From Chryseobacterium indologenes (GTDB lineage Bacteria; Bacteroidota; Bacteroidia; Flavobacteriales; Weeksellaceae), in assembly GCF_018362995.1 (NCBI RefSeq), contig NZ_CP074372.1, forward strand, positions 992,001 through 1,056,000: a DNA stretch of 64,000 nt, given 5' to 3'. The position numbers and the translations under genes were made by a program. Shown in pieces: positions 8,860 through 24,968 of this stretch (position 1 is its first letter; each line of letters starts with the position of its first letter). The notes below the pieces were generated by a model that saw only the letters and a program-made list of their open reading frames with translations, did no database searches and was not told where the DNA came from.

Positions 8860-9672
8860 ATGAAGAAGCTCATCAAAATTGTATTTGTCCTTACTGCATT
8901 TGTACAGTTATCCGCACAAAAAATTATTCATCAGGAAATTTTCAGTCCGAAAATGAATAAAAAAATCAAAACAGTGATCATCACTCCCAATCTAAAGCCT
9001 AATACGAAGTATCCGTCTGTTTACATTCTTCATGGTTTCAGTGGTAATCCGGACAGAATTATAAAGCAGGATATTCCTGATTTGGTTAAAAAAGCTCAGG
9101 AATTGAAAACAATCTATGTACTTCCGGATGGAAATTACAGTTCGTGGTATGTAGACAGTCCGGTTGTTAAGGATTCGCAATATCAGACTTTTATCGGAAA
9201 AGAACTGGTAGAATTCATTGACAAAAATTATCCTGTGAAAGCTGAAAAAAAATTCCGTGGGATTATGGGATGGAGTATGGGTGGCTATGGGGCAACCAAC
9301 ATCGGAGTTACGTATAATAAGACATTTGGTATCGTAGGAAGTTCATGTGGTGCCTTAGATTTTAATTCTTTTGGAGAAGGATACCAGAAATATATGGTAA
9401 ATAAGGTTTTAGGTCCATTGGAATCTATTAATCCTGCTTTCCTTACTGACAGCAAAATAAAACTGATGGCCGGAGCAGATCAGCAATATATTTTCGACTG
9501 TGGAACGGAAGATACTCAAATGATCAATATGAACAGAAATTTTCATAAAAAACTGACAGAAATGAAGATCCAGCACCTTTACACAGAATCTTTAGGCGGA
9601 CATGTTCCTGAATATTGGAGCAGATCGTTATCTGAGCAGTTGTCTTTATTTGACAGATTTTTTAAGCAATAA
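8860..9672 (+). CDS. Secreted alpha/beta-hydrolase-fold esterase
   Basis: A 270-aa exported esterase related to the putative esterase family (esterase D / feruloyl or acetyl-xylan esterase-like). It starts with a signal peptide (MKKLIKIVFVLTAFVQLSAQ). The motifs are YILHGFSGNPD, the nucleophile elbow GWSMGGYGA (Ser139), an acid near CGTEDTQ and a C-terminal histidine in LGGHVPEYW. It would act in the periplasm or outside the cell on an unknown ester. It is monocistronic and ends before a GGGCTTTAGCCC-type hairpin. Confidence 0.88.
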   Translation: MKKLIKIVFVLTAFVQLSAQKIIHQEIFSPKMNKKIKTVIITPNLKPNTKYPSVYILHGFSGNPDRIIKQDIPDLVKKAQELKTIYVLPDGNYSSWYVDSPVVKDSQYQTFIGKELVEFIDKNYPVKAEKKFRGIMGWSMGGYGATNIGVTYNKTFGIVGSSCGALDFNSFGEGYQKYMVNKVLGPLESINPAFLTDSKIKLMAGADQQYIFDCGTEDTQMINMNRNFHKKLTEMKIQHLYTESLGGHVPEYWSRSLSEQLSLFDRFFKQ

Positions 9673-9949: not shown

Positions 9950-11047
9950 TTAAAAATGTTTAAAGTTTTTACCCAGATGTTCCTCTATCACAAAGAACGG
10001 ATCTTCCGTAAGGGTATGCGCTCTCATGTCAATAAGGCTTACTTTACTCATCATACGAAGCATGATTCTTCTCTCGCACGGCTGTTCTATACCGTCAATA
10101 TTTCTTACTCCCGCCCGGAAAGCCGATCTTCCGTGAGCGCATAAGTGATTATTAACCAAAATCACATCTCCTGCCTGAGGGGTAAATCCTGAATAAATCA
10201 AATGTCTGGCCTCTTCCCAGAATTCATGCAGTGTACTTTGTGCTTCATCAGATTGTCTTATGCTGGAATTGAACAACTGTTCAGCGGCATCAAAACGCAT
10301 AAACGGAAGGCTGTAATTTCCATACAATACAGAATCTAATGTTTCCTCTTCATTATCTCCCGTTTCCAGATTGGCATCTTTTGGAATTTTATAAATACGC
10401 TCAAAAAGAGGTCTGTAATTTTCCCCGATAGCTTCATGAGAACGGATAGAATAAAGAGTAGAAGGAACCTGTTCCTCATTTCTTACATACATAAAGCTTA
10501 GAAAATCAGCCTGATGTTTCAGAAAAGCATCTTCTGTATGTACATACAAATCTGTTGAAGAGCCTGAGCCTGTCTGCGTTTCTTTCATTCTTTCATCAGG
10601 TATGATAGCATGGATCAATCCGCCGCCTTTACGCTGTGAATAATATTGTACAGGTTTTGAGGGAAGCGCCCCATGGATAAGGGCACATGCAAAACCGTAT
10701 AAATTAAATTTTGAATAATCAGCTGCCTGCCAATTGGGAGGAGTAGAGCCTATATTCTCCTGATCGATATCCATTAATCCGGTAAAGATCAGTGCACCAT
10801 ATTGATTTTTTGAAAAGTCACTCGCAAAATCAGCCGCTATATTTAAAATTCTCTCGGGTAAAAAATAAGACGCCAGCTGATGCACATGCTTAATAAAATC
10901 ACGGTTTTCATAAGTGTCATACTTTTTCTGAAGATGCAAAGCCGCATCTTTTATCATTCTTCTTTCCTGAGAGGTGACTTCTATGACCGTAGGAAGCAGT
11001 TTTACAGCTGTTAAACAGTCTTTATCTAAAATTTCTGTAGAATTCAT
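9950..11047 (-). CDS. Clavaminate-synthase-like Fe(II)/2-oxoglutarate oxygenase, likely lysine 4-hydroxylase
   Basis: A 365-aa non-haem iron oxygenase of the clavaminate synthase/VioC/AsnO family. The iron triad is visible as H170-T-E172 (VHTEDAF) and distal H305 (CAHGRSAF), with the Arg-rich RRIMLR segment about 20 residues later supplying the 2-oxoglutarate contact. Family members hydroxylate free amino acids; flavobacterial relatives are known as lysine 3- or 4-hydroxylases. It is divergent from a siderophore operon starting with a PLP decarboxylase. I infer that it makes 4-hydroxylysine, which on decarboxylation gives 3-hydroxycadaverine. Arginine or asparagine hydroxylation is the alternative; the C-H position is not readable from sequence. 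Confidence 0.85.
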   Translation of the reverse strand: MNSTEILDKDCLTAVKLLPTVIEVTSQERRMIKDAALHLQKKYDTYENRDFIKHVHQLASYFLPERILNIAADFASDFSKNQYGALIFTGLMDIDQENIGSTPPNWQAADYSKFNLYGFACALIHGALPSKPVQYYSQRKGGGLIHAIIPDERMKETQTGSGSSTDLYVHTEDAFLKHQADFLSFMYVRNEEQVPSTLYSIRSHEAIGENYRPLFERIYKIPKDANLETGDNEEETLDSVLYGNYSLPFMRFDAAEQLFNSSIRQSDEAQSTLHEFWEEARHLIYSGFTPQAGDVILVNNHLCAHGRSAFRAGVRNIDGIEQPCERRIMLRMMSKVSLIDMRAHTLTEDPFFVIEEHLGKNFKHF

Positions 11048-11057
11048 TAAAAAAAAT

Positions 11058-11086
11058 TTGGTGTTAAGTAATAATTTTTATCTTTG
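11058..11086 (+). promoter_or_regulatory. Promoter of the siderophore operon
   Basis: TTG at 11058-11060 and TATCTTTG at 11079-11086 are 18 nt apart. Transcription would start near 11093 and leave an AT-rich leader of about 170 nt before the decarboxylase ATG. Confidence 0.6.
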
Positions 11087-11093
11087 TTTTTAA

Positions 11094-11106
11094 TTATTCT
11101 AAATAA
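11094..11106. promoter_or_regulatory. Candidate iron-regulator operator between divergent promoters
   Basis: TTATTCTAAATAA is a 5-3-5 perfect inverted repeat lying between the predicted start sites of the operon (about 11093) and of the divergent oxygenase (about 11112). A Fur- or DtxR-like repressor bound here would shut both. The match is short and AT-rich, so this is tentative. Confidence 0.3.
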
Positions 11107-11118
11107 CAATAGCTGAGT

Positions 11119-11148
11119 CAAATTTAGTAATAATTATGTAATCACCAA
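11119..11148 (-). promoter_or_regulatory. Promoter of the oxygenase gene
   Basis: On the minus strand, TTG (plus CAA 11146-11148) and TAAATTTG (11119-11126) are 19 nt apart. The start would be near 11112, about 65 nt before the oxygenase ATG. Confidence 0.5.
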
Positions 11149-11263
11149 ATAAAATATAATAAAAAATGTAAAAATTAAAAACCTGACTATCAGATATATA
11201 TAATTATATATCAGAAAAACCACAACAATTCACAGATTAAAAAAATCACATTACAAAACTTTT

Positions 11264-12790
11264 ATGAACAACAATTTAATATCCCTTGAAGAGCTCGCAA
11301 GCACAACTTCACCTCACATTTCGGGGAATTTTGGGAATATTTTTCATCCTGACAATTATGATCATTATCGTAATGCTGTCAACAGTACTTTAGACCTGGT
11401 TCAGGAATTTCTTTACAGAAACAACAAACCTTTCAGTGGTATAGAAGCCAAAACAATGAAAGGAATGGTACAACAGATTGATCTTAATCAAAAATTATCC
11501 AACTATAATGAGCTTCTAGCAGAAGTAGACGAAATTTATGTGAAACATGCTACAGCTTTTCACCTTCCTCAATATGTAGCTCACCTTAACTGTCCTGTAG
11601 TGATTCCTGCATTGGCAGGTGAAATCCTTGTAAGTGCCATCAATTCTTCTCAGGACACTTATGATCAGAGTGCAGGCGGAACTTTCATGGAAAGAAAACT
11701 GATCGACTGGACCGCGGGTCAAATTGGATATAATATGAATGAAAGCGATGGCGTTTTCACAGCAGGAGGGTCACAGAGCAACTTAATGGGATTGGTCATG
11801 ATGCGTGACTGCTTTTCTCAGAAAAGATACAATCATAATATTAAAATGGATGGTCTTCCAGTGGAGGCAAGCCGTTTTAGAATATTCGTTTCGGATAAAT
11901 CTCACTTCAGTAATCTGAAAAATGCTTCTATTATGGGATTAGGTGAGAAAAGTATCATTAAAGTGCCTACTGATGGCCGTTTCCGTATGGACATTTCTCT
12001 TTTAAAGAAATATATTAAAAGGGAAGAACAGCTAGGAAATATTCCTATCGGAATCGTAGCAACAGCCGGAACTACAGATTTTGGAAACATAGATCCACTG
12101 GATGATATTGCGAATATTGCAGAACATTATAACATCTGGATGCACGTAGATGCAGCGTATGGATGTGCATTATTATTGAGTGAAAAGTACCGTGACCTGA
12201 TTAATGGCATTGAAAGAGCAGACTCTGTAACGATTGATTATCACAAATCATTCTTCCAGCCTATCAGCAGCAGTGCTTTTATTGTTAAGAACAAAAAAGA
12301 ACTGTTGATCCTTAAACATCATGCCGATTATCTGAATCCGAAAGAAATGGACGAAGAGGAAATTCCGGCACAGATCAATAAATCCATTACCCAAAGTACC
12401 CGAAGATTTGATGCGTTAAAACTTTGGTTTACCATAAGGATGATGGGCAAAGAACAGCTGGCAGAATATACAGATACTGTGATTGATCTTACCAAAGATG
12501 CTGCCGCAATGATTACTGAAGATGCAGATTTTGAACTTCTTTCTGATTCTGACTTAAGTGTTCTTGTTTTCAGGTATGTAAATCGGGAAATCAGTGATCT
12601 GAATGCCCTGAATCAGTACATCAAGATGAAATTGTTCTACAGCGGAGAAATCCTTGTAGCGAGTACAAAGGTTGACGGAAATTTCTATTTGAAATTCACT
12701 TTCCTGAACCCAATTACGACGACAGAAGACATTCATCAGATTCTCACCACAATCAAAAAGCATGGAAAAGACTTTAATACAGAAAACTAA
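11264..12790 (+). CDS. PLP-dependent group II decarboxylase (hydroxylysine/lysine or diaminobutyrate type)
   Basis: A 508-aa pyridoxal-phosphate decarboxylase of the family containing L-2,4-diaminobutyrate decarboxylase and siderophore lysine decarboxylases. Visible are the substrate-gate region DTYDQSAGGTFME, FTAGGSQSNL, HVDAAYGCA (Asp296) and the Schiff-base lysine in DYHKSFFQP (Lys328). In rhizobactin-type pathways it makes 1,3-diaminopropane, but no diaminobutyrate aminotransferase is present here. The divergent oxygenase makes 4-hydroxylysine a better substrate guess, giving 3-hydroxycadaverine. First gene of a nine-gene operon; its end overlaps the next gene by 29 bp. Confidence 0.9.
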   Translation: MNNNLISLEELASTTSPHISGNFGNIFHPDNYDHYRNAVNSTLDLVQEFLYRNNKPFSGIEAKTMKGMVQQIDLNQKLSNYNELLAEVDEIYVKHATAFHLPQYVAHLNCPVVIPALAGEILVSAINSSQDTYDQSAGGTFMERKLIDWTAGQIGYNMNESDGVFTAGGSQSNLMGLVMMRDCFSQKRYNHNIKMDGLPVEASRFRIFVSDKSHFSNLKNASIMGLGEKSIIKVPTDGRFRMDISLLKKYIKREEQLGNIPIGIVATAGTTDFGNIDPLDDIANIAEHYNIWMHVDAAYGCALLLSEKYRDLINGIERADSVTIDYHKSFFQPISSSAFIVKNKKELLILKHHADYLNPKEMDEEEIPAQINKSITQSTRRFDALKLWFTIRMMGKEQLAEYTDTVIDLTKDAAAMITEDADFELLSDSDLSVLVFRYVNREISDLNALNQYIKMKLFYSGEILVASTKVDGNFYLKFTFLNPITTTEDIHQILTTIKKHGKDFNTEN

Positions 12791-15182
12791 AACAGGAGAA
12801 AAAGCCCGTGAAATTACTTTCAGAATTCTGTTGAACGGAATGTTGAGAGAACTGGGAAACGGAAAATTCTACCAGGGAGTTCCAAAGTATGACATTCTCA
12901 CGGCAAAAGCTCTTCAGAACAGTGATTATCCGCTGCATATGAGATTTGAAATGAAGAAAAGCGGACTGTTTTTATTTGCTCCGGTTTCTTATCGTTCCGA
13001 AACGCTTTTTCATGAATATGGACCCGTTTTGTGGGCTGTTGACCACCAGAATAAGGCTGTTTTTGAAGTTAATAATGAAAAACTGACCGAGCTGGTTTAC
13101 AAAGAACTTTCTGAGACTACAAACGAAACAGGTTTCAGAAACTTTGTGGAAAGAATTCAAAGCAGCTTAAGAAACCTTGAACTCACAACTGAAGCATGTC
13201 TGCAGGATAATCAGCTTTTAACGTATTCTTTTTTGGAATCTGAACAAATGCTTCCTGCCGGACACAATCTGCATCCTTTCACCAAATCAAGAATGGGATT
13301 TTCTGAGGAAGAACAGTTGTTATACGGTCCCGAATTCGGAAAAGGATTTCAACTGGATTATTTCCTGATTCATAAAGACTGTATCACAGAAAAATCTCTT
13401 CCGGGAGTTTCAGCAAAAGAAATCTTTGAAAAATGGGCATCCATACCGGAAAGTTACGATTTTGAAAACATCAATGATTTTTACATCGTTCCCTGTCATC
13501 CATGGGAAGCGCAATATCTATTATCCACGGAAGAATATCCGGAAATGCTTGGGTCAGGGAAAATTATCCACATCGGCCCTTTGGGAGAGGATTTTTACGC
13601 AACATCCTCTATAAGAACGGTATATAATCCTGATTTTATCTGGATGCTGAAGTTTTCTTTGCATGTTTTAATGACAGGCTCTGTGAGAACAAACAGCTTA
13701 AAAGATCTCAACAGAGGGTATGCTTCGGCAATCTGGTGGCAGCATCAAAAAGCTTCATTTGAACAAGATTTTCCGAATTTTAAATTATTATTAGAACCTT
13801 CCACGTTAAGCGTTCATTATGAGGGGAAGAATATGGACAGTCTGAATATACTGCTCCGTGAAAATCCTTTTTCCAATGAAGATAAAGTGATTCTATTAGC
13901 CAGGCTTTGTCAGGATGAATCTACAGATGGTTTCAATTTTACAACACATTTCTTTAAAAATGTTGCCAATCAACTGGGAATGGAACCGGAAAAAGCTGCT
14001 ATTATCTGGTTTGAAAAATATGTGAGTCTATTGCTTTCACCATTAAACAGATTGTATAATCAATTAGGAATGGCTCCGGAAGTCCATCAGCAGAATCTTC
14101 TTATTCAACTGGATAATCAGCTTCTTCCTCAATCTATTTATGTAAGAGACGGACAAGGGTATCTGATCAAAGAAAGCTTTAAAGGAAAATATGAATCTCT
14201 GATCAATAACTATCCTGAAATTGAGGATCTTTTCATTAGAGATGAACGTCTTTTAGATATTATTTCCCACCATCTTCTGGTAAGTAACCTGAGTGCGTTG
14301 ATTGCTTCCATAGGTAAAACCGGATTGGTGAAAGAAAGAAGACTTATTCATATTCTGTACAGGGAGTTTGAAAACCTTCATGGAAATGAGCCTTCCTCAT
14401 TAACGGATTATGCTTTGAATCAAAGATATTGGGCAGTAAAATCAAACCTTCAGTCGGCGGTGTCTGATGTAGACGGCGGAGTGTCTGCTTCCTCAATTTC
14501 TTATGCTAAAGTTCCGAACCTTCTTCACAAACATTTCTTCTCAGATCAGCTGATTCATCCTCAGGGAACAGAAGTTTTCTTTAAAAGGTATTTCCAGAAA
14601 GAAGATGTAACGATGAGTATGCGTCCTATTGATCTTGAAAATGATCTTGAAAATGACCTTGAAATGCTTCATGAATGGTTCAACCGTGAACATGCCGTAA
14701 AAATCTGGCAGATGAACTGGCCTATTGACGAGCTGGAAACGTATTACAGATTGATGCTTCCAGGTGACGAAGCGCACAGTTATATCATTGCAGGAAATGA
14801 TGAGCCTTCTTGTAATATCGAGATTTATTGGGCATGCAGAGATATTGTTGGGGATTATTACGAAGTGCTTCCTACAGATTACGGAACGCACCAGTTCATT
14901 GCACCTACTGATCCTAAGAAGAAATTTGTATCTCCATCCACTCAATCTATGGTTGATTATGTTTTTGCACAGCCACAGGTAGGAAAAATGGTAGGAGAAG
15001 GGTCTGTAGACTCTCTTGCGTCTATGATGAACAAAGCTCATGTAGGCTTCAAAGTAGATAAAGTAATAGAAATGCCTCATAAAAAAGCCAATCTGAACTT
15101 CTGTTACAGAGAATGGTACTGGGAAAAATTCCCACAGAATAAAGAGGTACAAATCACCACAAACATCACAAAAAATGACTAA
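12762..15182 (+). CDS. NIS siderophore synthetase fused to a GNAT acyltransferase
   Basis: An 806-aa two-domain enzyme. Residues about 1-600 are an IucA/IucC-type synthetase that adenylates a carboxylate (citrate) and condenses it with an amine or hydroxyl: HNLHPFTKSRMGFS, VPCHPWEAQYLL and EVHQQNLL are its landmark motifs. Residues about 610-800 are an IucB/RhbD-like acyltransferase (MSMRPIDLENDLEND, HEWFNREH, NIEIYWACRD, HVGFKVDKVIEMPHKKANL). In rhizobactin and aerobactin systems these are separate proteins (for example RhbC and RhbD). The junction contains a 12-bp tandem repeat coding DLEN-DLEN-DLEM. It overlaps both neighbours, so translation is coupled. Confidence 0.93.
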   Translation: MEKTLIQKTKTGEKAREITFRILLNGMLRELGNGKFYQGVPKYDILTAKALQNSDYPLHMRFEMKKSGLFLFAPVSYRSETLFHEYGPVLWAVDHQNKAVFEVNNEKLTELVYKELSETTNETGFRNFVERIQSSLRNLELTTEACLQDNQLLTYSFLESEQMLPAGHNLHPFTKSRMGFSEEEQLLYGPEFGKGFQLDYFLIHKDCITEKSLPGVSAKEIFEKWASIPESYDFENINDFYIVPCHPWEAQYLLSTEEYPEMLGSGKIIHIGPLGEDFYATSSIRTVYNPDFIWMLKFSLHVLMTGSVRTNSLKDLNRGYASAIWWQHQKASFEQDFPNFKLLLEPSTLSVHYEGKNMDSLNILLRENPFSNEDKVILLARLCQDESTDGFNFTTHFFKNVANQLGMEPEKAAIIWFEKYVSLLLSPLNRLYNQLGMAPEVHQQNLLIQLDNQLLPQSIYVRDGQGYLIKESFKGKYESLINNYPEIEDLFIRDERLLDIISHHLLVSNLSALIASIGKTGLVKERRLIHILYREFENLHGNEPSSLTDYALNQRYWAVKSNLQSAVSDVDGGVSASSISYAKVPNLLHKHFFSDQLIHPQGTEVFFKRYFQKEDVTMSMRPIDLENDLENDLEMLHEWFNREHAVKIWQMNWPIDELETYYRLMLPGDEAHSYIIAGNDEPSCNIEIYWACRDIVGDYYEVLPTDYGTHQFIAPTDPKKKFVSPSTQSMVDYVFAQPQVGKMVGEGSVDSLASMMNKAHVGFKVDKVIEMPHKKANLNFCYREWYWEKFPQNKEVQITTNITKND

Positions 15183-16491
15183 CGAAGCCGTATACAATGT
15201 AATAGGCATAGGTATAGGTCCTTTCAATCTGGGACTTGCCGCATTATCCAATCCGATTTCGGAACTGAAAACCCTTTTTCTGGACCAGAGAGATGGTTTC
15301 GACTGGCACCCGGGATTGATGATTGACCATGTAACCCTGCAGACCCCATTTTTATGCGACTGCGTATCCATGGCTGATCCTACCAATCCTTTAAGCCTTT
15401 TGAATTATCTGAAGGAAACCGGAAGGCTGTATAAATTTTTTATCAGAGAAGATTTTTTCATTCCGAGAAAAGAATACAACCGTTACTGCCAATGGGTTAT
15501 TGAACAGCTTCCACAATGCCGTTTCTCTACTCAGGTAGTGGATATTACTTATGAAGAGGGTTTATATCATGTGACAACAATTCACACCAAAACAAAAGAA
15601 ACAACTGTTTTTAAAACGGAAAGACTGATTTTAGGAACGGGGACCCAACCTCATATTCCTTCTTTTATTCCGAAAGATGACTCCAGAATTATTCATACGA
15701 GCTCTTATCTGTATCGAAAAGAGGAATTATTATCTCAAGGAAAGAAAATTGCGATTATCGGTTCCGGACAGAGTTCGGCAGAGGTATTTTATGACCTTCT
15801 TCAAAACAGAAATGAAGAAACACAGTTGGGATGGTATTCCCGCCCGGACAGATTTTTCCCTATGGAATATTCTAAACTGACACTGGAACTTACTTCTCCT
15901 GATTATGTAGAATATTTCTACAACAGAAGCGAGTCAGCAAGGAAAACCATTTTAAGCAAGCAGCAAGCTCAGTTTAAAGGAATCAATTACGATCTGATTA
16001 ATGATATCTATGATTTTATTTATGATTTGAATATCGACAATGCTGATCCTAATCTTAAAATCATTCCTAACAGCCAGCTGAACAGCGTAGACAATAGTAA
16101 TCCTGACTTTATCAATCTTGAATTCACACAGCTGGAACAGGAAGTTCCTTATAATCAGGAAGCTGATTATCTGATTCTGGGAACAGGATACCGTTACCAC
16201 GAGCCTGCATTCATAAAGAATATTCAGGACAGAATTAAAAGAGATTCCAGCGGATTGTTTGATGTGAACAGGAATTATTCAATAGACCACAACGGAGGCG
16301 AAATTTACGTTCTCCACGCTGAAGTACACACCCACAGCTATATTTCTACCGATCTGGGAATGGCGGCTTACCGTAATTCCTACATCATCAATGATATTCT
16401 GGGAAGAGAGCATTATACAATTGAAAAGAAAATTGCTTTCCAGGATTTCGATGTCGAAAAATATGCTGATTTACCAACTACCAAAATTTAA
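15175..16491 (+). CDS. Siderophore amine N-hydroxylase (lysine/ornithine N-monooxygenase family)
   Basis: A 438-aa flavin monooxygenase of the IucD/PvdA/RhbE family, which N-hydroxylates the terminal amine that becomes a hydroxamate. The FAD site GIGIGPFNLGLAAL, substrate-side DQRDGFDWHPGLM, NADPH site IIGSGQSSAEVF and the C-terminal LGTGYRYH motif are all present, and length is normal. Given the operon, the likely substrate is a decarboxylated diamine (cadaverine or hydroxycadaverine). Start overlaps the NIS-GNAT gene by 8 bp; the next gene follows after 4 nt. Confidence 0.93.
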   Translation: MTNEAVYNVIGIGIGPFNLGLAALSNPISELKTLFLDQRDGFDWHPGLMIDHVTLQTPFLCDCVSMADPTNPLSLLNYLKETGRLYKFFIREDFFIPRKEYNRYCQWVIEQLPQCRFSTQVVDITYEEGLYHVTTIHTKTKETTVFKTERLILGTGTQPHIPSFIPKDDSRIIHTSSYLYRKEELLSQGKKIAIIGSGQSSAEVFYDLLQNRNEETQLGWYSRPDRFFPMEYSKLTLELTSPDYVEYFYNRSESARKTILSKQQAQFKGINYDLINDIYDFIYDLNIDNADPNLKIIPNSQLNSVDNSNPDFINLEFTQLEQEVPYNQEADYLILGTGYRYHEPAFIKNIQDRIKRDSSGLFDVNRNYSIDHNGGEIYVLHAEVHTHSYISTDLGMAAYRNSYIINDILGREHYTIEKKIAFQDFDVEKYADLPTTKI

Positions 16492-16495
16492 TTAA

Positions 16496-18307
16496 ATGAA
16501 CACCAACTTAAAAAATACAGTAAGCCAGGAAAACTGGAATCAGGCCAACAGAAACCTAATGGCCAAAACCATCGCAGAGCTGATGCATGAAGAGCTTCTC
16601 AAACCTGTGGCAACTTTTGAAGATCAGGACGGATATACCATTTTTAAACTTGAAACAGGATTTGAAAATATTACCTACAGCTTCCGCGGACAGGAAAGGA
16701 TGATGGATTATTGGCATATTGATAAAAACAGTATTACAAAGACCGAAAACGGTGAAGATCTGTCTGCCGTAGATGTGGCGGCTTTCTTTCTGGAAATGCA
16801 GTCAATTTTTGATTTAGATCCTTATACCATTGCAAGATATACAGAAGAATTGCTGCATACGCTGTATTGTGATGCTTTTATTTTATCCAAAGGAGTAATG
16901 TCTTCAAAAGACCTTGCGGATGCTGATTACCAGACTGTGGAGCACAACATGACCGGACATCCGTGGGTTATTGTGAACAAAAGCCGATTGGGTTTTTCTC
17001 CACGTGATCTGAAAACATTTGCCCCTGAAGCAGATGAGAATTTAAAAGTAATCTGGCTGGCTTCCCATAAAAGCAGATCGTCATTCCAGGCTTTGGAACA
17101 TATTGACCGAGAGCAGTTTTATCGTTCCGAAATAGGAGAGGATTTATATAATAATTTTCAACAACAACTGATTAGTGAAGGTAAAAATGTTGAAGATTAC
17201 CACTTTATTCCTGTACATCCTTGGCAGTGGGAGCACAAGCTTCAGATTCATTTTGCCGGAGATATTGCTTCCGGACTTTTAATCCAGCTGGGAGAGGGAA
17301 GTGATACCTACAGCCCGCAGCAAAGTATCCGTACTTTATTCAATGTAGATAATCCTAAAAAGAGATACCTGAAAACAGCTGTTTCTATTCTGAGTACAGG
17401 AAATATCAGAGGATTATCACCTAAGCAGATGAAAATTGCTCCTGCCATTACAGACTGGGTAAAAGGCTTAATTAAAGATGATGCTTACCTTGAAAATAAA
17501 GAAACTATTTTCTTAGGAGAAGAAGCTGCCATCACTTATCTGCACCCACAGTACGGAACTATTGCCAGTGTTCCTTACCAATACAATGAATTCCTTGGAG
17601 CATTATGGAGAGAAAGTGCTGAAAACTATCTGAAAGAAGATGAGCAAATGGTAACCATGGCTTCTTTACTTTATGTAGATGAAAGTGGAGTTCCATTGGT
17701 TCAGGCATTTGCAGAAAAAGCAGGTGTGAGTATCAAAGAATGGATTGAAAGCTATCTTGATGCCTATCTTACCCCATTATTACACATTTATTACACCCAT
17801 TCATTATGTGTAACGCCACATGGAGAAAACATTATGGTTGTTTTGAAAAATGGAATTCCAAAAAGAATCGTAATCAAAGATTTTGTGGATGATATTGTAC
17901 TTACCACAGAAGCCAGAGAAAAACTTCCTGCACACCTTGCAGACGGTTTGATTCAGTCTTCCAACAAAGAAAATATCCCGTTGTTTATTTTGCTGGGTGT
18001 TTTTGATGCTTTCTTCAGATATCTGTCAAATGCATTGCATACCTATTCAGACTTTAAGGAAGAAAAATTCTGGGGACTTGTCCACAACTGTGTAGAAAAT
18101 TATAAAGCTGAGAATACCCACCTTCAGGAAAGATACGAAAAGTATGACCTGTACGTGCCTGCATTTAAAAGATTCTATATCAACAGTCTGCGTCTGAAAA
18201 ATAACGGTTACAGTGAAAATAAAGCATTTGCCATTCCGAGAAAAGACGGAGCACTGCCTAATCCGCTGTATCAGATTGCCAATAAAAATTCAGTAGCAGC
18301 AGTATGA
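16496..18307 (+). CDS. Second NIS siderophore synthetase (IucA/IucC family)
   Basis: A 603-aa synthetase without extra domains, like RhbF or IucC. Landmarks are GHPWVIVNKSRLGFS, VPVHPWQWEHKLQ, the ATP-site segment IRTLFNV and the C-terminal FhuF-like part with HGENIMVV and RIVIKDFVDD. Two synthetases in one operon fit stepwise attachment of two side arms to the two ends of citrate. It overlaps the exporter gene by 4 bp (ATGA junction). Confidence 0.93.
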   Translation: MNTNLKNTVSQENWNQANRNLMAKTIAELMHEELLKPVATFEDQDGYTIFKLETGFENITYSFRGQERMMDYWHIDKNSITKTENGEDLSAVDVAAFFLEMQSIFDLDPYTIARYTEELLHTLYCDAFILSKGVMSSKDLADADYQTVEHNMTGHPWVIVNKSRLGFSPRDLKTFAPEADENLKVIWLASHKSRSSFQALEHIDREQFYRSEIGEDLYNNFQQQLISEGKNVEDYHFIPVHPWQWEHKLQIHFAGDIASGLLIQLGEGSDTYSPQQSIRTLFNVDNPKKRYLKTAVSILSTGNIRGLSPKQMKIAPAITDWVKGLIKDDAYLENKETIFLGEEAAITYLHPQYGTIASVPYQYNEFLGALWRESAENYLKEDEQMVTMASLLYVDESGVPLVQAFAEKAGVSIKEWIESYLDAYLTPLLHIYYTHSLCVTPHGENIMVVLKNGIPKRIVIKDFVDDIVLTTEAREKLPAHLADGLIQSSNKENIPLFILLGVFDAFFRYLSNALHTYSDFKEEKFWGLVHNCVENYKAENTHLQERYEKYDLYVPAFKRFYINSLRLKNNGYSENKAFAIPRKDGALPNPLYQIANKNSVAAV

Positions 18308-19707
18308 GGAAATTCCTGCATATACTAAAAGAAGGAGCGGTTTTTACGTATGGAGCCATAGCCGGAAAGAAAGTTGAACTGACTTCCGGGAGTATCAACC
18401 GTTCCATCTTTAGTCTTGCCATTCCCATGGTGATGGAACTTGTTATGGAATCTGTTTTTGTGAGTGTCAATCTATTGATTATTGCAAAATTAGGCGACAA
18501 GGTTCTTGGTCTTGTGGGAATTACAGATAACTACATCAACTTTGCTTATGCTATTGCCGTAGGTTTGGGAATTGCAGCAGCAACCCTTACCGCCAGAAGA
18601 GCAGGTGAAAAAGATAAAGAAGGAATGGGCAGAACAGCCCAATATATCATCTTGCTGGCTCTGTTTTTTGCAGTGCTTATTGGTGGAATTTCCTGCTTTT
18701 TCGCATCAGAAATTGTTGATTTTTTGGGAATCAATGCCAGTACGGTAACTGAAGGCGTTTCTTTCTCACGACTGGTCTTCCTGAGTATCGGGCTTGTAAT
18801 TCTTCGTTTATCTGTAAATGGACTCTTCAGAGGGGCTGGTGACGCCGACATAGCTATGAAATCGCTTTGGATCTGCCATATTTCCAATATCATCTTTGCA
18901 GTGATCCTTGTTTTCGGATTAGGATTTATACCTGCTTTTGGATTGATGGGATTGGCATATGCTACAGTTTTATCAAGGCTTTTAGGGGTTTTATATCAAG
19001 CCTTCGTATTGATGTCCGGAAAAACCAGCATCAGCATCAGAGTTCCTTTACAGCTTGATATTCCATTGCTGCAGAAGATTCTGAAACTCGCATTTGGAGG
19101 ATTGGTTCAGTATATCATTCCAACATCCAGCTGGCTGATTATGGTGAAAATCATCTCTACTTTCGGAACAACAGCGCTGGCAGGATACATTATTGCCCAG
19201 CGTATTGCTTCGGTCGCTACAATGCCTGCCTGGGGAATAGGAAATGCGGCTGGAGTTCTTACAGGCCAGAATCTGGGTGCCGGAGAACCGGACCGTGCAG
19301 AAAAAACAGTCTGGAGAGCAGGAACCATCAACATGACTTATCTGGTAATTGTAGCCTTATTCTGGCAGATTGCTGCTGAATATGTGGTGAAATTTTTTAC
19401 TACCGAACCTGAAGTTGCAAGATATGCGGTTCAATACATCCATGTGGTTTCTATGGCGTATCTGCTGTTAGGATTCACCATGGTAATCAGCCGTGCTCTG
19501 AATGCGGCCGGAAACATATTACAGGTAACGTTGTTGTACCTCGTTATGTTTTATGTGATTCAGCTTCCGCTGGCTTATCTCTTAGGAGTAAGGTTTCAGT
19601 GGGAACTGAGAGGAATATTTACCGCTATCGTTTCTTCGGAAATAGTTTTGGCTGTACTATTCCTCATGATTTTTAAAAATGGAAAATGGAAAACTATAAA
19701 AATTTAA
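18304..19707 (+). CDS. MATE-family efflux transporter, probable siderophore exporter
   Basis: A 467-aa inner-membrane protein with 12 predicted helices and the MATE internal duplication. The first repeat shows IPMVMELVMESVFVSVN; the second, GGLVQYIIPTSSWLIMVKI with GNAAGVLTGQNLGAGEPDRA. MATE pumps couple export to Na+ or H+. Its place between the biosynthetic genes and the ACP/ligase pair suggests that it exports the finished siderophore across the inner membrane, but the family also moves drugs. Confidence 0.88.
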   Translation: MRKFLHILKEGAVFTYGAIAGKKVELTSGSINRSIFSLAIPMVMELVMESVFVSVNLLIIAKLGDKVLGLVGITDNYINFAYAIAVGLGIAAATLTARRAGEKDKEGMGRTAQYIILLALFFAVLIGGISCFFASEIVDFLGINASTVTEGVSFSRLVFLSIGLVILRLSVNGLFRGAGDADIAMKSLWICHISNIIFAVILVFGLGFIPAFGLMGLAYATVLSRLLGVLYQAFVLMSGKTSISIRVPLQLDIPLLQKILKLAFGGLVQYIIPTSSWLIMVKIISTFGTTALAGYIIAQRIASVATMPAWGIGNAAGVLTGQNLGAGEPDRAEKTVWRAGTINMTYLVIVALFWQIAAEYVVKFFTTEPEVARYAVQYIHVVSMAYLLLGFTMVISRALNAAGNILQVTLLYLVMFYVIQLPLAYLLGVRFQWELRGIFTAIVSSEIVLAVLFLMIFKNGKWKTIKI

Positions 19708-19708
19708 A

Positions 19709-19954
19709 ATGAACACTACAGAAGAATTTTATGAAATTATCGCCTCTGCCATCGCAATAAAGAAAGAATTGGTAGATGAAAAACTAACATATCAGGAAAT
19801 CCCGGAATGGGATTCTATGTCTCATCTTCTGATCGTAGAAGCGCTTGAACAGTTTTATCAGATCAAATTTGATTTTAATGATATTCTGGAGATGGGAACC
19901 GTCGGCAAGATTCGTGAAAAAATGAAAAAATACGAAGTATTCGTAGAAAACTAA
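19709..19954 (+). CDS. Acyl carrier protein
   Basis: An 81-aa carrier protein. The phosphopantetheine site is Ser36 in WDSMSH, followed by the helix LLIVEALEQFY and an acidic C-terminal half. It sits directly before an AMP-dependent ligase, and the two probably make an acyl-ACP thioester. A carrier protein is not part of standard rhizobactin or aerobactin pathways, so it marks an extra acylation step in this siderophore. Confidence 0.9.
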   Translation: MNTTEEFYEIIASAIAIKKELVDEKLTYQEIPEWDSMSHLLIVEALEQFYQIKFDFNDILEMGTVGKIREKMKKYEVFVEN

Positions 19955-19958
19955 GCCT

Positions 19959-21347
19959 ATGAAAATTTTAGAAAATGTAATTGCCAATAAGAACCTGGCG
20001 TTTACAGATGCTTCCATCGGTACAACAATACCGGTGGGAACACTGTACCGGTCTTTAGGCTTAAACCCCGTAGAAAAAGGCCTGCTCTTTTTGTACAATG
20101 ACAATCAGCTGCCTAGCATTGAGGTGCTCCTCAATTTTTACGGAACAGCGCACACGATAGCGGTATTGGGACAGAAACTCCATGAGGAGTTCAAAGAACG
20201 TATTGAAGCGGAGTACCGCCCAAAATATATTTTTGATCCGCAGAGAGAAGCCATTGAAGGATACAGCCTGAAAGAATTCTCAGACCATATCAGAATTTTT
20301 GCAAAGGATGATTATAAAAGTGTGGTTACCATTCACCCTGACATCAAAATTCTTTTGAGTACTTCAGGAACTACAGGTGTTCCGAAACTGGTTAAGTTAT
20401 CTGATGAAAGTCTTTATCAGAACGCCTTGAGTATTCTTCAGTATATGCCGATTCTGGATACTGATGTAGTTCCTTTAAACGTTCCGATCAACTTTGTGTA
20501 CGGATTTTCTATTTTCACCACCAACTGTATGCGCGCCGGAAGAATTGTGTGTACAGATAAAGACATTATGCAGAAAGCATTCTGGGACGAAATGGAGGAG
20601 TACGGCTACAGTACTTTGGGTGGAGTGCCTTTCCTCTATGAAAATTTGAACAGAATAGGATTCTTCAGAAAAGATTCTCCAAGTCTGAGATATTTTACCC
20701 ACACCGGAGGTGTAATCAATGCTGAATTGAGAAAAACCATTTTCTCTTACTGTCATGAATTTAAAAAAGATTTCTTTGCACAATACGGACAGACTGAAGC
20801 AGGTGGAAGAATGGCTTATCTTACTACAGAAGGATTGCTGGAGGGTGAAACTTCTATCGGAACTCCTGTACACAAAGGAAGTTTCAGAATTGATCCTGAA
20901 ACCGATGAACTTCTCTTTTCACACATCAGTATTTTCGGAGGTTACGCCAATAAGCTGGAAGATTTGACAACGTACGAGCAGCCTTCCGTACTGCATACCG
21001 GAGATACCGCCAGAAAAGGTGAAAACGGAATTTATTATATCACAGGTAGAATAAAACGTATCATGAAGCTTTTCGGAATACGTCTTAATCTCGATGAGGT
21101 AGAATTTATTCTTAAAAATGAAATGCAGGGCAATACTTTCGTATGTCTGAATGCTAATGATAAAAAAATCGTGGTGTTGTATGACAACCCGGAAATAGAT
21201 CCTCAGATCATCACCGAAACCATTAAAAATAAACTGCGTATCAACCCACAATATGTACGCACAGAACTTATAGAATCATTCCCATTATCACAAAACGGTA
21301 AAATAAACTATCCCCTGTTACAAAACCTACAGCATGAAAACATCTAA
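19959..21347 (+). CDS. AMP-dependent acyl-ACP/acyl-CoA ligase
   Basis: A 462-aa ANL-family adenylating enzyme, shorter than typical acyl-CoA synthetases (about 500-560 aa). The P-loop-like motif LLSTSGTTGVPKLVKLS, the YGQTEAGGRM motif, HTGDTAR and the C-terminal swivel with GRIKRIMKLFG and the catalytic Lys near SQNGKINYPLL are present. It should activate a carboxylic acid and load it on the preceding carrier protein. Candidates are fumarate or a fatty acid, both reported in chryseochelins; sequence alone cannot decide. It overlaps the TonB receptor gene by 14 bp. Confidence 0.9.
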   Translation: MKILENVIANKNLAFTDASIGTTIPVGTLYRSLGLNPVEKGLLFLYNDNQLPSIEVLLNFYGTAHTIAVLGQKLHEEFKERIEAEYRPKYIFDPQREAIEGYSLKEFSDHIRIFAKDDYKSVVTIHPDIKILLSTSGTTGVPKLVKLSDESLYQNALSILQYMPILDTDVVPLNVPINFVYGFSIFTTNCMRAGRIVCTDKDIMQKAFWDEMEEYGYSTLGGVPFLYENLNRIGFFRKDSPSLRYFTHTGGVINAELRKTIFSYCHEFKKDFFAQYGQTEAGGRMAYLTTEGLLEGETSIGTPVHKGSFRIDPETDELLFSHISIFGGYANKLEDLTTYEQPSVLHTGDTARKGENGIYYITGRIKRIMKLFGIRLNLDEVEFILKNEMQGNTFVCLNANDKKIVVLYDNPEIDPQIITETIKNKLRINPQYVRTELIESFPLSQNGKINYPLLQNLQHENI

Positions 21348-23778
21348 AACCCTTATATTACTTCTTGGCCTTGCTTTATCTTCCAACTCGCTTTCTGCAC
21401 AGCAGGGCGACAGAATTCATGGCAAAATCATGCTGTCTGAAAAAGCACCGGTAAAAAACGCTGTTTTAAGACTTGTCAACACGTCTTATCAGGCAAAAAC
21501 CAATAATTTAGGAGAATATTACTTTGAAAATGTGCCACCTGGAGAATATACGCTTCAGGTGGTTTTAAATGACATTGAACTGATGAGGGAATCCATCCAC
21601 ATTCAGAAAGATGTCTATGAAATTCCTGCAATTTACGCCCCGTTACACAATAATGTGATTGAGGGAATTACCGTATATGCAGTGAGCAGAAATAAATTTT
21701 TGGATAAAGACAGTACTTCAGTGGCTAAAATGCCATTGAAAGTTCTTGAGAATCCACAGGCTTACACAAGCATCAACCAGCAGATCATGAAAGAACAGCT
21801 TACTTACGATATCTCGGAAGTATTGAAAAATGTTCCGGGAATGGTAAAAATGCAGGGAAGCCCGGGAAGAGGTTCAGGAGACGGAAGTTTCTACTACAGC
21901 CTTAGAGGTTTTCCTACCAAAGTATCCATGGTAGACGGTGTTCCTGCAACCACCAACGGAGAAATAGATCCTGCCGATCTTGAACGTCTGGAAGTGATCA
22001 AAGGTCCTTCAGGAACATTGTATGGAGGTGCAGTAACTTCGTTTGGAGGTTTAATCAATGCTGTAACCAAAAAACCGAAAGATTATTTAGGAGGTGAAGC
22101 TTCTTATTTGATGGGAAGCTACAATCTGAACCGTGTCACAGCTGATGTTTACGGACCGATTACGGAATCCAGAAATATGTTATTCCGCTTAAATGCGGCA
22201 TATCAGTATCAAAATGGTTTCAGGGATTCCGAATTCAGGAAATCATTCTTTGTAGCCCCTACAGTTAGTTATCAGGTTAATGAAAGGCTTAAGTTTAACT
22301 TAGGAGCTCAGATTTATAATTATGAAGGAACAAACACTCCGATTATTTTCCTTCCGAGAACAAGAGCTTATTTTTCTCATAATCCCGATGAACTTGGTTT
22401 CGACTGGAAAAGGTCATATTCCAACAATGATATGACGTTAAAAGCTCCGTCCATCAATGTAAAAGCTGAGGCTAATTACAAAATTTCAGATAAATGGACT
22501 TCACAAACCTTGCTTTCAAGAAACTTCAGAAAAACAGAAGGTTTGTACCAATATCAGTTTATCAGAGGAAATACAAGTGATGCCATGCTGGAACGTAACG
22601 TACAATGGCAGAACTCAGAAGCATCTTCTACAAGTGTTCAGCAGAACTTCAACGGAGAATTTAACATCGGAAAAGTTAAAAATAAAGTATTAATCGGATT
22701 AGATTACCTTAATCAGACAATCAACAATAACCATTCTCCGATTGTGGTATTTGATAATGTGGACGGACAAAATTTGACAGGGAGCTATGGAAGCATTTCT
22801 AAAGACCTTGCCCTTCAGAAAATCCAGGCAGCTACTCAGGCGGCAATTTCAGCAGGTAAAACACCTTTGGTTAGAAATACCACTGCATCCAATCTTTATG
22901 GAGCTTATATTTCAAACGTAACCTATATTACCGACCGTTTGATTACGCTGGTAAGTTTGCGTATGGATCATTATGAAAGTAAAGGACAGCTTAATCTGAA
23001 TGATAACAAACGTGTGGGTGAATTCAAACAGACGGCATGGTCTCCCAAAGTAGGAATCGTATACCAGATACTTAAAGACCAGTTATCTGCCTATGGGAAC
23101 TATATGAATGGCTTCAGCTATACAGCACCTGTTACACAACAGTTGGCAGACTACAGTGGAGATATGAAGCCACAGATGGCCAACCAGTGGGAGGTAGGAT
23201 TGAAAGGAAATCTCTGGAGAAACAAAATTAATTTTACCGTTTCATATTATGACATCCTTGTCGACAATATCCAGAGAGGAACCGGAGTGATCCGTGACGG
23301 AAAAGAATACAATATTGTTGTTCAGGACGGAAAACAAAGAAGTAAAGGCATTGAAATCGAAACGATCATGAATCCTGTTCAGGGATTAAATATTATGGCC
23401 GGATATGCTTACAATCACAGCAGATATGAAAAAGCTGATCCTGCTGTAGAGGGGCGCCGTCCGGAATCTGCAGGTCCTGCGAATGTATTCAATTCCTGGA
23501 TCAGTTACATACTTCCGATTAAAGGACTTCAGGGACTTGGAGTAGGTTTCGGGGTAAACCGTGTAGGAAAACAGATTACCGGAAATAAAGTGGTTACCGG
23601 ACAGTTTATATTTCCTGCCTATACTTTGGTGAATGCTTCTATTTCCCTTGAAAAAGAAAGATACAGGCTAGGATTTAAAATGAATAACCTGGGCAATGTA
23701 CAATACTTTGCAGGGCAGGGAGTAGTAGTCGCTCAGATGCCTCGTAATTTCGTTGCTGAGGTAAGCTTTAAATTTTAA
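21334..23778 (+). CDS. TonB-dependent ferric-siderophore receptor
   Basis: An 814-aa outer-membrane receptor. It has a signal peptide (to about residue 23, LSAQQ), a carboxypeptidase-regulatory-like domain (about 25-100), a plug (about 130-245, LRGFPTKVSMVDGVPA, IEVIKGPSGTLYGG-like wording) and a 22-strand barrel ending in aromatic FVAEVSFKF. It resembles hydroxamate receptors of the FhuE/FoxA group. As the eighth gene of the operon it is the probable importer of the siderophore made here. Confidence 0.92.
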   Translation: MKTSKTLILLLGLALSSNSLSAQQGDRIHGKIMLSEKAPVKNAVLRLVNTSYQAKTNNLGEYYFENVPPGEYTLQVVLNDIELMRESIHIQKDVYEIPAIYAPLHNNVIEGITVYAVSRNKFLDKDSTSVAKMPLKVLENPQAYTSINQQIMKEQLTYDISEVLKNVPGMVKMQGSPGRGSGDGSFYYSLRGFPTKVSMVDGVPATTNGEIDPADLERLEVIKGPSGTLYGGAVTSFGGLINAVTKKPKDYLGGEASYLMGSYNLNRVTADVYGPITESRNMLFRLNAAYQYQNGFRDSEFRKSFFVAPTVSYQVNERLKFNLGAQIYNYEGTNTPIIFLPRTRAYFSHNPDELGFDWKRSYSNNDMTLKAPSINVKAEANYKISDKWTSQTLLSRNFRKTEGLYQYQFIRGNTSDAMLERNVQWQNSEASSTSVQQNFNGEFNIGKVKNKVLIGLDYLNQTINNNHSPIVVFDNVDGQNLTGSYGSISKDLALQKIQAATQAAISAGKTPLVRNTTASNLYGAYISNVTYITDRLITLVSLRMDHYESKGQLNLNDNKRVGEFKQTAWSPKVGIVYQILKDQLSAYGNYMNGFSYTAPVTQQLADYSGDMKPQMANQWEVGLKGNLWRNKINFTVSYYDILVDNIQRGTGVIRDGKEYNIVVQDGKQRSKGIEIETIMNPVQGLNIMAGYAYNHSRYEKADPAVEGRRPESAGPANVFNSWISYILPIKGLQGLGVGFGVNRVGKQITGNKVVTGQFIFPAYTLVNASISLEKERYRLGFKMNNLGNVQYFAGQGVVVAQMPRNFVAEVSFKF

Positions 23779-23780
23779 GG

Positions 23781-24968
23781 ATGAAATTAAAGTTTAGAAA
23801 AATTGCATATCAGTTACATCTATGGCTCGGACTCACGTCCGGGCTTATAGTTGTTATTATGGCCGCTACAGGATGTATCCTTGCTTTTGAAGAAGAATTA
23901 AAACATATTGTTCACCCCAACAGATATTATGTTGAAAACATTGGAAGAAAAAAGCTTTCATTATCTCAACTTACGGAAAAAGCAGAAAAAGCACTTCCTG
24001 AAGGACTGAAGGTTAAAAGGGTAGTAATACCTTCCGATCCTGCACAAACCTATATATTCCGAACCCTTAAAATGGATAACGAAGCATGGACGTATTGGGG
24101 AACTTATCTTTATTATTACCGTGTGTATATTGATCCTTATAACGGAAAAGTTCAGGAAGTGGAAGATGCCAAAAAGGACTTTTTTGAAATTGTATTGGAT
24201 CTTCACAGAAGGCTTTTGCTGGGTGAAAAAATAGGGAAAACAATTACCGGCTATTCCACACTTGTGTTGGGGATCATTCTTTTTTCGGGGCTTGTAATAT
24301 GGTACCCCCGTAAAATGAGCAAAAGTATGCTGAAAGGAATGTTTTTCATTAAATTATCAGCCAACTGGAAAAGAATCAATTATGATCTTCATAATGTACT
24401 GGGATTTTATTCAGTGATTCCTTTGCTTATTATTTCTTATTCCGCATTGATATGGAACTTTGAAGATGTAGACAAATGGGTAAAGAATACATTAAATGGA
24501 AACATTCCCACAGAAAAGAAAGCCAAAAGTATCATACCTTCCGGAGAGTTTTCAAACCGGGAAAATATTCTCAATCTGATTGGAAATACCATGGAAAATG
24601 GACTTAAAAACAAAAAATCAGCGCTTATTAATTTTCCAAGATCAGAAGAAGGTACTTATTATACTGAACTGACTTATGACGGAAGACAATACAGAAACGA
24701 ACAGTTTAATTTTGATCAGTATTCAGGAGATATCTTAAAATCTCAATCTTATAAAAACAAAAATATCGGATATGGAACCGCATTGAGAGAAAGAAATTAT
24801 GACCTTCACACCGGAAGCATTTTGGGAATAACGAGCAGAATCATTTATTTTCTGGCAGCAATGATCGCAACATCACTTCCCATCACCGGTTTTATCATCT
24901 ATTTAAACAGGAAAAAGAAAAAACCAAAACATAAGAAAAACAAAATAGTTTATCCTTCTCATCATTAA
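23781..24968 (+). CDS. PepSY-associated transmembrane protein, probable siderophore-iron reductase
   Basis: A 395-aa inner-membrane protein with a first helix after IAYQLHLWLGL, a central PepSY-like periplasmic domain, further helices at about 150-170 and 205-230, and a last helix near 355-375 followed by a Lys-rich tail. Conserved histidines at helix edges (LHLWLG, DLHRRL, YDLHNVLGF, YDLHTGS) could bind haem. Relatives such as FoxB and PiuB are linked to reductive iron release from siderophores in the periplasm. It follows the receptor by 2 nt and ends the operon, before a long palindromic repeat. Confidence 0.87.
   Translation: MKLKFRKIAYQLHLWLGLTSGLIVVIMAATGCILAFEEELKHIVHPNRYYVENIGRKKLSLSQLTEKAEKALPEGLKVKRVVIPSDPAQTYIFRTLKMDNEAWTYWGTYLYYYRVYIDPYNGKVQEVEDAKKDFFEIVLDLHRRLLLGEKIGKTITGYSTLVLGIILFSGLVIWYPRKMSKSMLKGMFFIKLSANWKRINYDLHNVLGFYSVIPLLIISYSALIWNFEDVDKWVKNTLNGNIPTEKKAKSIIPSGEFSNRENILNLIGNTMENGLKNKKSALINFPRSEEGTYYTELTYDGRQYRNEQFNFDQYSGDILKSQSYKNKNIGYGTALRERNYDLHTGSILGITSRIIYFLAAMIATSLPITGFIIYLNRKKKKPKHKKNKIVYPSHH

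Follow-up and report, generated by a model that had tools for sequence, protein, structure and literature searches.

Introduction

The chryseochelins are the described siderophores closest to the system considered here. According to the accessible part of PMC9989332, chryseochelin A of Chryseobacterium soil isolates consists of citrate, 3-hydroxycadaverine and two fumarate appendages; chryseochelin B has one unit ester-linked via the hydroxyl, and chryseochelin C adds fatty acids. The mass values given there include m/z 621.22, with fragments at m/z 233.113 and 389.119, at m/z 100.076 and 117.102 for 3-hydroxycadaverine and at m/z 99.008 for fumarate. The discoverers describe the pathway as yet to be proven, and the main text of that paper lacks the terms 'gene cluster' and 'NIS' (nonribosomal peptide synthetase-independent siderophore). 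The papers found in a search of open-licence literature, which covered neither preprints nor most subscription papers, name no chryseochelin genes, and prior publication is possible. The present analysis concerns a siderophore locus of Chryseobacterium indologenes, situated in a 64,000-nucleotide stretch (positions 992,001 to 1,056,000 of contig NZ_CP074372.1) referred to below as the window. This locus quite probably encodes the pathway for a chryseochelin-type siderophore.

Two further pathways share components with the locus. In aerobactin, N-acyl-N-hydroxy building blocks are placed on citrate and lysine itself is used; as with aerobactin (IucA/IucC), the window locus has a pair of NIS synthetases, which we take to be of types A and C, whereas its decarboxylase is of the desferrioxamine type and its second synthetase is nearer to DesD than to IucC. 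With the desferrioxamine pathway (DfoJ/DfoA/DfoC, DesABCD) the locus shares the decarboxylase, the diamine N-hydroxylase and the DesD-like NIS synthetase, and its GNAT part matches DfoC; it adds an IucA-like NIS domain carrying the GNAT domain, an oxygenase, an acyl carrier protein (ACP) and a ligase. Lysine 4-hydroxylases, to which the oxygenase is related, are known mainly as biocatalysts.

Gene content of the locus

The host genome is a single contig of 5.0 Mb. The locus comprises an oxygenase gene transcribed leftward and nine genes transcribed rightward, the coding regions being separated by short gaps or overlapping (Table 1). The first-pass annotation had listed a complete siderophore gene set, and this inventory is borne out: all named genes have open frames and, with the exception of the ACP, the expected Pfam and NCBIfam domains. 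Three of its labels need qualification. The acyltransferase is not a separate gene; the activity is represented by a GNAT domain, residues 628–771 of the 806-residue first NIS protein (Pfam). The small ACP gene is present, and its label comes from a weak PDB match and a WDS motif. The PepSY gene is present as well, the term 'reductase' being a guess from its domain. The IucA/IucC domain PF04183 occurs in two proteins, the sole two found in the genome.

Table 1. Genes and candidate regulatory elements of the locus (window coordinates)
Feature	Position	Strand	Evidence
Fe(II)/2-oxoglutarate lysine hydroxylase, KDO5-like, predicted L-lysine 4-hydroxylase	9950..11047	-	phmmer 464 bits to 6euo
Promoter-like motif TTTGG..TAnnTTTG, decarboxylase operon	11057..11086	+	in 40/46 loci, raw count
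Fur-box-like palindrome GTTTTTAATTATTCTAAAT, putative operator between divergent genes	11086..11104	.	19 bases, 3 mismatches to ATTTAGAATNATTCTAAAT
Promoter-like motif TTTGG..TAnnTTTG, oxygenase	11119..11149	-	in 45/46 loci, raw count
Pyridoxal phosphate-dependent decarboxylase, predicted 4-hydroxylysine decarboxylase	11264..12790	+	453 bits to DfoJ 5o5c
IucA-like type A NIS synthetase fused to C-terminal GNAT N-acyltransferase	12762..15182	+	Pfam IucA_IucC, FhuF, Acetyltransf_8
Flavin N-hydroxylase, diamine class	15175..16491	+	423.1 bits to 6xbb
NIS synthetase, DesD/DfoC/AlcC-like, type C	16496..18307	+	426 bits to DfoC
MATE exporter	18304..19707	+	TIGR00797 above cut-off
Putative ACP, likely attachment Ser36 in WDSMSHL	19709..19954	+	weak match to 2lml
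AMP-forming acyl ligase, predicted acyl-ACP ligase (fumarate proposed)	19959..21347	+	PF00501
TonB-dependent siderophore receptor	21334..23778	+	TIGR01783 above cut-off
PepSY membrane protein, possible ferric-siderophore reductase	23781..24968	+	PF03929 + PF03413; role inferred from domain

Oxygenase

The best PDB relative of the oxygenase is the L-lysine 4-hydroxylase KDO5 (6euo, also 6eur), with 59% identity over 348 columns; the closest relative overall, 99% identical, is from Chryseobacterium rhizoplanae. Sixteen KDO5 positions, those named in the accessible part of PMC11066847, were checked, and fifteen are identical in the window oxygenase: H170, E172, H305, Q138, R139, H146, T159, S161, D173, D224, N226, D253, R307, R327 and R331. 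Residues H170, E172 and H305, listed for the oxygenase in the first-pass annotation, align with the iron ligands H176, E178 and H312 of KDO5. The match thus covers the 2-His-1-Glu iron site and the substrate-binding Asp and Arg residues (D173, D253, R331 and R327); R331 aligns with Arg338, the lysine-carboxylate anchor of KDO5, and R327 corresponds to Arg334, modelled with succinate. The fifteen positions equal those of KDO5 in all 61 rows compared, 55 from Chryseobacterium and Elizabethkingia and six from the genus g35. The 55 rows represent 52 distinct oxygenases, several being one genome in two collections, and include the oxygenase of locus L019, whose translation contains a stop. Stops also occur in the translations of the first NIS of L043, the PepSY protein of L137 and the esterase of L024 and L085.

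The six g35 oxygenases are 83–92% identical to KDO5, and their genes lie in clusters like that of the window, so that the biochemical assignment extends to the pathway. Because of this identity, we take g35 to be Flavobacterium, from which KDO5 presumably originates. The window oxygenase is predicted to hydroxylate free L-lysine at C4. Action on cadaverine after decarboxylation is less likely, since all 61 rows retain Arg331, the anchor residue.

Decarboxylase

Since decarboxylation turns C4 of lysine into C3 of cadaverine, a lysine 4-hydroxylase and a decarboxylase would together explain 3-hydroxycadaverine. Among PDB structures, the decarboxylase matches DfoJ (5o5c) with 453 bits and the diaminobutyrate decarboxylase 2qma with 360 bits. 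This bears on a rhizobactin- or schizokinen-type route, in which diaminobutyrate would be converted to diaminopropane and the oxygenase would do something else. The decarboxylase does match the RhbB diaminobutyrate-decarboxylase model first, but its score of 381 bits falls short of the model's cut-off (900); three related decarboxylases likewise match this model first (365–398 bits). The first-pass annotation had argued against rhizobactin from a missing diaminobutyrate aminotransferase, and the genome agrees with it: the best of eight TIGR00709 matches in the 5.0 Mb scored 212 bits against a cut-off of 401.6. The N-hydroxylase is of the diamine class, and the oxygenase is linked to the cluster in all positives examined. 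The route was rejected on the sub-threshold RhbB match, the DfoJ score and the lack of an above-cut-off TIGR00709 aminotransferase, and we attach next to no probability to it.

Synthetases and N-hydroxylase

The best PDB match of the first NIS protein is IucA (5jm7, 154 bits), followed by DfoC (114 bits), where the best-matching stretch lies in the GNAT part. The second NIS synthetase scores 426 bits with DfoC, 413 with DesD, 370 with AlcC, 248 with IucC and 47 with IucA. A citrate-using pair of types A and C is thus present by similarity, and one IucA-like and one DesD-like synthetase are as expected for two joins to citrate. The N-hydroxylase matches 6xbb (423.1 bits) and the desferrioxamine enzyme 5o8p (422.6 bits) nearly equally, then putrescine N-hydroxylase (366 bits) and the lysine N6-monooxygenase MbtG (153 bits).

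The decarboxylase, the N-hydroxylase and the second NIS synthetase therefore all have best or near-best PDB matches of the desferrioxamine type, as would suit a desferrioxamine- or bisucaberin-type molecule built of hydroxycadaverine-dicarboxylate units without citrate. Desferrioxamines need no citrate-type NIS enzyme, and the first NIS domain is of that IucA-like, citrate-using type (154 bits, as opposed to 26 or less for DesD). A product of this kind is very improbable; a plain desferrioxamine system, defined as a DesD-type NIS without a citrate-type NIS, was rejected because the IucA-like domain is present.

Linkage of the oxygenase to the cluster

In one scan of genome contigs, 46 loci with a close oxygenase were collected. 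All 46 contain the decarboxylase, both NIS synthetases, the N-hydroxylase, the MATE exporter, the ACP and the ligase in the same order, the ligase being cut by the locus edge. In the family, 44 of 246 genomes carry the oxygenase, and an orthologous second NIS above 1100 bits is found in precisely these 44, the next match scoring 458. No third NIS match was found in oxygenase-positive genomes within the five candidates scored per genome. In the order, the oxygenase occurs in 28 of 395 genomes, all with the ligase; three further genomes (G397, G273 and G319) have the ligase without the oxygenase. Among 155 g35 genomes, 13 have the oxygenase (four of these matches marked with one internal stop), and each of the 13 also has the ligase; in 12 the two genes share a contig at a distance of about 11 to 12 kb, and in one they lie on different contigs. 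One more g35 genome has a remote ligase alone, 36% identical. The gene order is common to two families in six of six loci read. A search across the phylum yielded six positives among 395 genomes, all g35 or Chryseobacterium, though distant lysine hydroxylases of other orders may be missed by it. The idea that the oxygenase is an unlinked neighbour is ruled against by the linkage in all positives examined.

A nitroreductase-family gene precedes the decarboxylase in all seven g35 clusters read (e.g., L106:7283-7918; also L105, L107-L110 and L137). It lies between the oxygenase and the decarboxylase, or before the decarboxylase in G397; the loci of Chryseobacterium and Elizabethkingia that were searched gave no match to it.

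Among the genomes sampled of genus g23, Elizabethkingia argenteiflava (G023; loci L024 and L085) is the sole carrier of the oxygenase cluster. Four others (G046, G062, G074 and G084) have a 38–39% NIS match, and the one locus read among them, L083 of G046, contains the decarboxylase, the N-hydroxylase and separate GNAT and NIS genes. These observations suggest transfer of the whole cluster.

Oxygenase-less clusters and phylogeny

Fourteen Chryseobacterium genomes that lack the oxygenase carry a shorter cluster, in which the decarboxylase, a NIS-GNAT gene and the N-hydroxylase adjoin in 14 of 14 cases. The stretches read contain no match above 45 bits to the oxygenase, ACP or ligase, and an orthologous second NIS was found nowhere in these genomes. 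In L068 and L075, for which frames were listed, the set is completed by a TonB receptor gene and a MATE gene other than that of the window cluster. Five of the loci (L068, L075, L077, L079 and L082) are flanked by the same MocR-type gene and esterase as the window cluster, and these common flanks in 5 of 14 loci indicate that one and the same slot can be occupied by either cluster. For the other sister loci one flank or neither was seen, and L071 has an arrangement of its own. Another NIS locus (L069 and L073) is present elsewhere in two of the 14 genomes, G175 and G206. In the five loci of other Chryseobacterium, the chromosomal slot is thus filled by a shorter siderophore cluster with a single NIS-GNAT gene.

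The esterase of the window (8860-9672) is a putative PF00756 protein with a weak enterochelin esterase match. Since it also stands beside oxygenase-less clusters, it is probably part of the host flank. Farther off in the window, a 1445-residue fusion (43936-48273) combines an AcrB-type pump with an outer-membrane efflux domain.

A tree of 41 decarboxylases was built with DfoJ and 2qma as outgroups, whose long branches were flagged by the program. It included 17 of the 55 Chryseobacterium/Elizabethkingia rows, six linked g35 rows, one g35 row without oxygenase, the 14 oxygenase-less Chryseobacterium and one Elizabethkingia-group row (L083, whose first NIS is absent from the NIS1 tree). The 23 oxygenase-linked enzymes and that of G397 form one clade (support 100/99) apart from the 14 unlinked ones; most of the linked enzymes share the genus with the 14 and yet cluster apart from them. 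In the trees of the first NIS (NIS1) and the N-hydroxylase, constructed with no outgroup, one supported branch likewise splits the 23 linked from the 14 unlinked Chryseobacterium rows. Midpoint rooting of the NIS1 tree places all six linked rows of g35 on the side of the unlinked ones. The suggestion that the decarboxylase tracks the oxygenase more closely than the other two proteins do was dropped, as all three unrooted trees show one such supported branch.

Fixed differences separate the 61 linked decarboxylases, of which 58 are distinct, from the 14 unlinked ones at 24 alignment columns, including one gap. At seven of these columns, DfoJ and 2qma share the residue of the unlinked enzymes, from which the linked ones differ. 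The linked-specific residues, with those of the unlinked enzymes in brackets, are Leu101 (His), Tyr133 (Trp), Arg144 (Gln), Asn220 (Ser), Ala369 (Asn), Ile371 (Val) and Ser378 (Thr). The G397 decarboxylase matches the linked enzymes at 101, 133, 144 and 369 and the unlinked ones at 371 and 378, its residue 220 being Thr.

Ligase and carrier protein

The ACP has no Pfam, NCBIfam or PHROGs match. It matches 2lml with 27.5 bits, and its WDS motif is invariant in six aligned sequences; core motifs of the ligase, including K448, are invariant in nine. No gene that could introduce a double bond into a succinyl group was seen in the window cluster. Together with the sister clusters, which lack ligase and ACP matches, this makes fumaryl-ACP the simplest proposal, and the ligase and ACP perhaps supply fumarate. 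We know of no fumaryl-ACP serving as acyl donor for siderophore GNATs. Loci L139 and L140 (G273 and G319) also contain a related ligase gene and a carrier-protein gene, separated by a dehydrogenase-like gene; these loci have no NIS matches and resemble sugar-polymer loci.

Proposed pathway

By similarity, genes for 3-hydroxycadaverine, for the hydroxamate and for two joins to citrate are present in Chryseobacterium. In the proposed pathway, the oxygenase would hydroxylate L-lysine at C4 and the decarboxylase would convert 4-hydroxylysine to 3-hydroxycadaverine, one amine of which would be N-hydroxylated by the flavin enzyme. The AMP ligase would activate the acyl group, proposed to be fumarate, and the ACP would carry it; the GNAT domain could then acylate the hydroxylamine, yielding the hydroxamate. 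The two units would be attached to citrate in turn, the first by the IucA-like domain and the second by the DesD-like synthetase. Export is assigned to the MATE protein and uptake of the ferric siderophore, putatively, to the TonB receptor. The first-pass annotation had proposed the same order of steps from lysine via 4-hydroxylysine and 3-hydroxycadaverine to citrate; the sequence and comparative evidence supports this route, and the ligase and carrier protein, left unexplained there, find a place in it. As compared with chryseochelins A–C in the accessible part of PMC9989332, the genus is the same, and a citrate core, 3-hydroxycadaverine, hydroxamates and an acyl-activation module able to supply fumarate would be expected; the paper gives structures, whereas this strain is known from its genes.

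A number of points weigh against this assignment. What the sequence and genome comparison shows directly is gene content, conserved residues, linkage and a conserved operator; from these the individual reactions, their order, the regulation and the product are inferred, and the genomes compared are other than those of the known chryseochelin producer strains (CHR2, CHR5 and CHR6). The sixteenth checked oxygenase position departs from KDO5, Tyr233 being replaced by Leu227 in all 55 Chryseobacterium/Elizabethkingia rows, while the residue stays Tyr in six of six g35 rows; a computational study credits Tyr233 of KDO5 with steering C4 selectivity (accessible part of PMC11066847). The cluster of G397 (a g35 genome; L137) is complete from decarboxylase to ligase and has no oxygenase, so that the oxygenase step is not indispensable there; within the 30 kb fetched, no oxygenase remnant was found beside it, only short chance-level matches. 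This cluster is predicted to make an unhydroxylated version of the siderophore. The earliest fork of the trees is unsure, given the long outgroup branches of the decarboxylases and the outgroup-free NIS1 and N-hydroxylase trees. Genes that could attach the fatty acids of chryseochelin C were not identified. The best matches of the ligase scatter across several types (gramicidin synthetase, D-alanine ligase, oxalate-CoA ligase and others), with a top score of 57 bits, and its predicted structure, made from nine sequences, has a mean predicted local distance difference test score of 63.6, too poor to use.

These ligase matches, from which the specificity is unreadable, leave room for the same hydroxycadaverine-citrate skeleton bearing another acyl group, fatty or other dicarboxylic, or for a ligase and ACP that serve the chryseochelin C tail while fumarate comes from elsewhere. 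Two related ligase genes that neighbour a carrier-protein gene where NIS genes are absent would fit such an arrangement. On the other side, chryseochelin, the one Chryseobacterium siderophore structure in the literature examined, contains fumarate, and ligase and ACP matches above 45 bits are missing from the 14 oxygenase-less sister stretches. We regard this alternative as unlikely and retain the chryseochelin-type assignment with fumarate as the proposed acyl group.

A possible, though doubtful, elaboration of that assignment is that the hydroxyl acts as a chemical handle: a NIS enzyme might first esterify citrate on the 3-hydroxyl (chryseochelin B), with a subsequent shift to the amide (A) or trapping by fatty acylation (C), fumaryl-ACP being the donor, and the Leu227 branch of oxygenases might keep C4 selectivity without the tyrosine.

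Candidate regulation

The 216-base gap between the divergent oxygenase and decarboxylase genes contains a Fur-box-like palindrome (Table 1), identical in 45 of 46 loci and changed by one base in the remaining one. Of 2000 mononucleotide shuffles of the gap, 18 reach three or fewer mismatches to ATTTAGAATNATTCTAAAT. Riemerella belongs to the same family, Weeksellaceae; binding of Fur to its box, ATTTAGAATTATCCTAAAT, was shown by gel shift, and a Fur-controlled bidirectional promoter occurs elsewhere in its genome (accessible parts of PMC10986502 and PMC11967795). The window palindrome differs from ATTTAGAATTATCCTAAAT at four of 19 bases. Sites with 3–4 mismatches, as raw matches, also occur in the longer gaps of three g35 clusters, of the G397 cluster and of two oxygenase-less clusters, and no Fur-like site was found in the receptor–decarboxylase gap of L075. 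In the host genome of the window, the 17-base core occurs with two mismatches at 28 places, compared with 13 for a reversed control. Fifteen such loci were read: L151 and L153 lie by apparent TonB-type receptors, L162 by a ferritin-like gene, and most of the others by genes without evident iron link. Within the window, four matches with three or fewer mismatches were counted, not above chance (16 of 100 shuffles).

The promoter-like motifs of Table 1 follow TTTGG..TAnnTTTG, which we take to be the Bacteroidota-type promoter consensus. A sigma-70 promoter scan gave 43 sites, against 46.2 in shuffles, and terminator-like sites numbered 19 against 11.1. The locus appears to be iron-regulated, via the candidate Fur operator.

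Significance

If the assignment is true, lysine 4-hydroxylases would gain a natural role. The oxygenase-less clusters of the same slot, together with G397, are natural comparisons for the oxygenase step, and the Leu227 branch is a natural test of the published idea of tyrosine-guided C4 regioselectivity. Chryseochelin, a siderophore of plant-protecting strains, would gain candidate genes in dozens of genomes.

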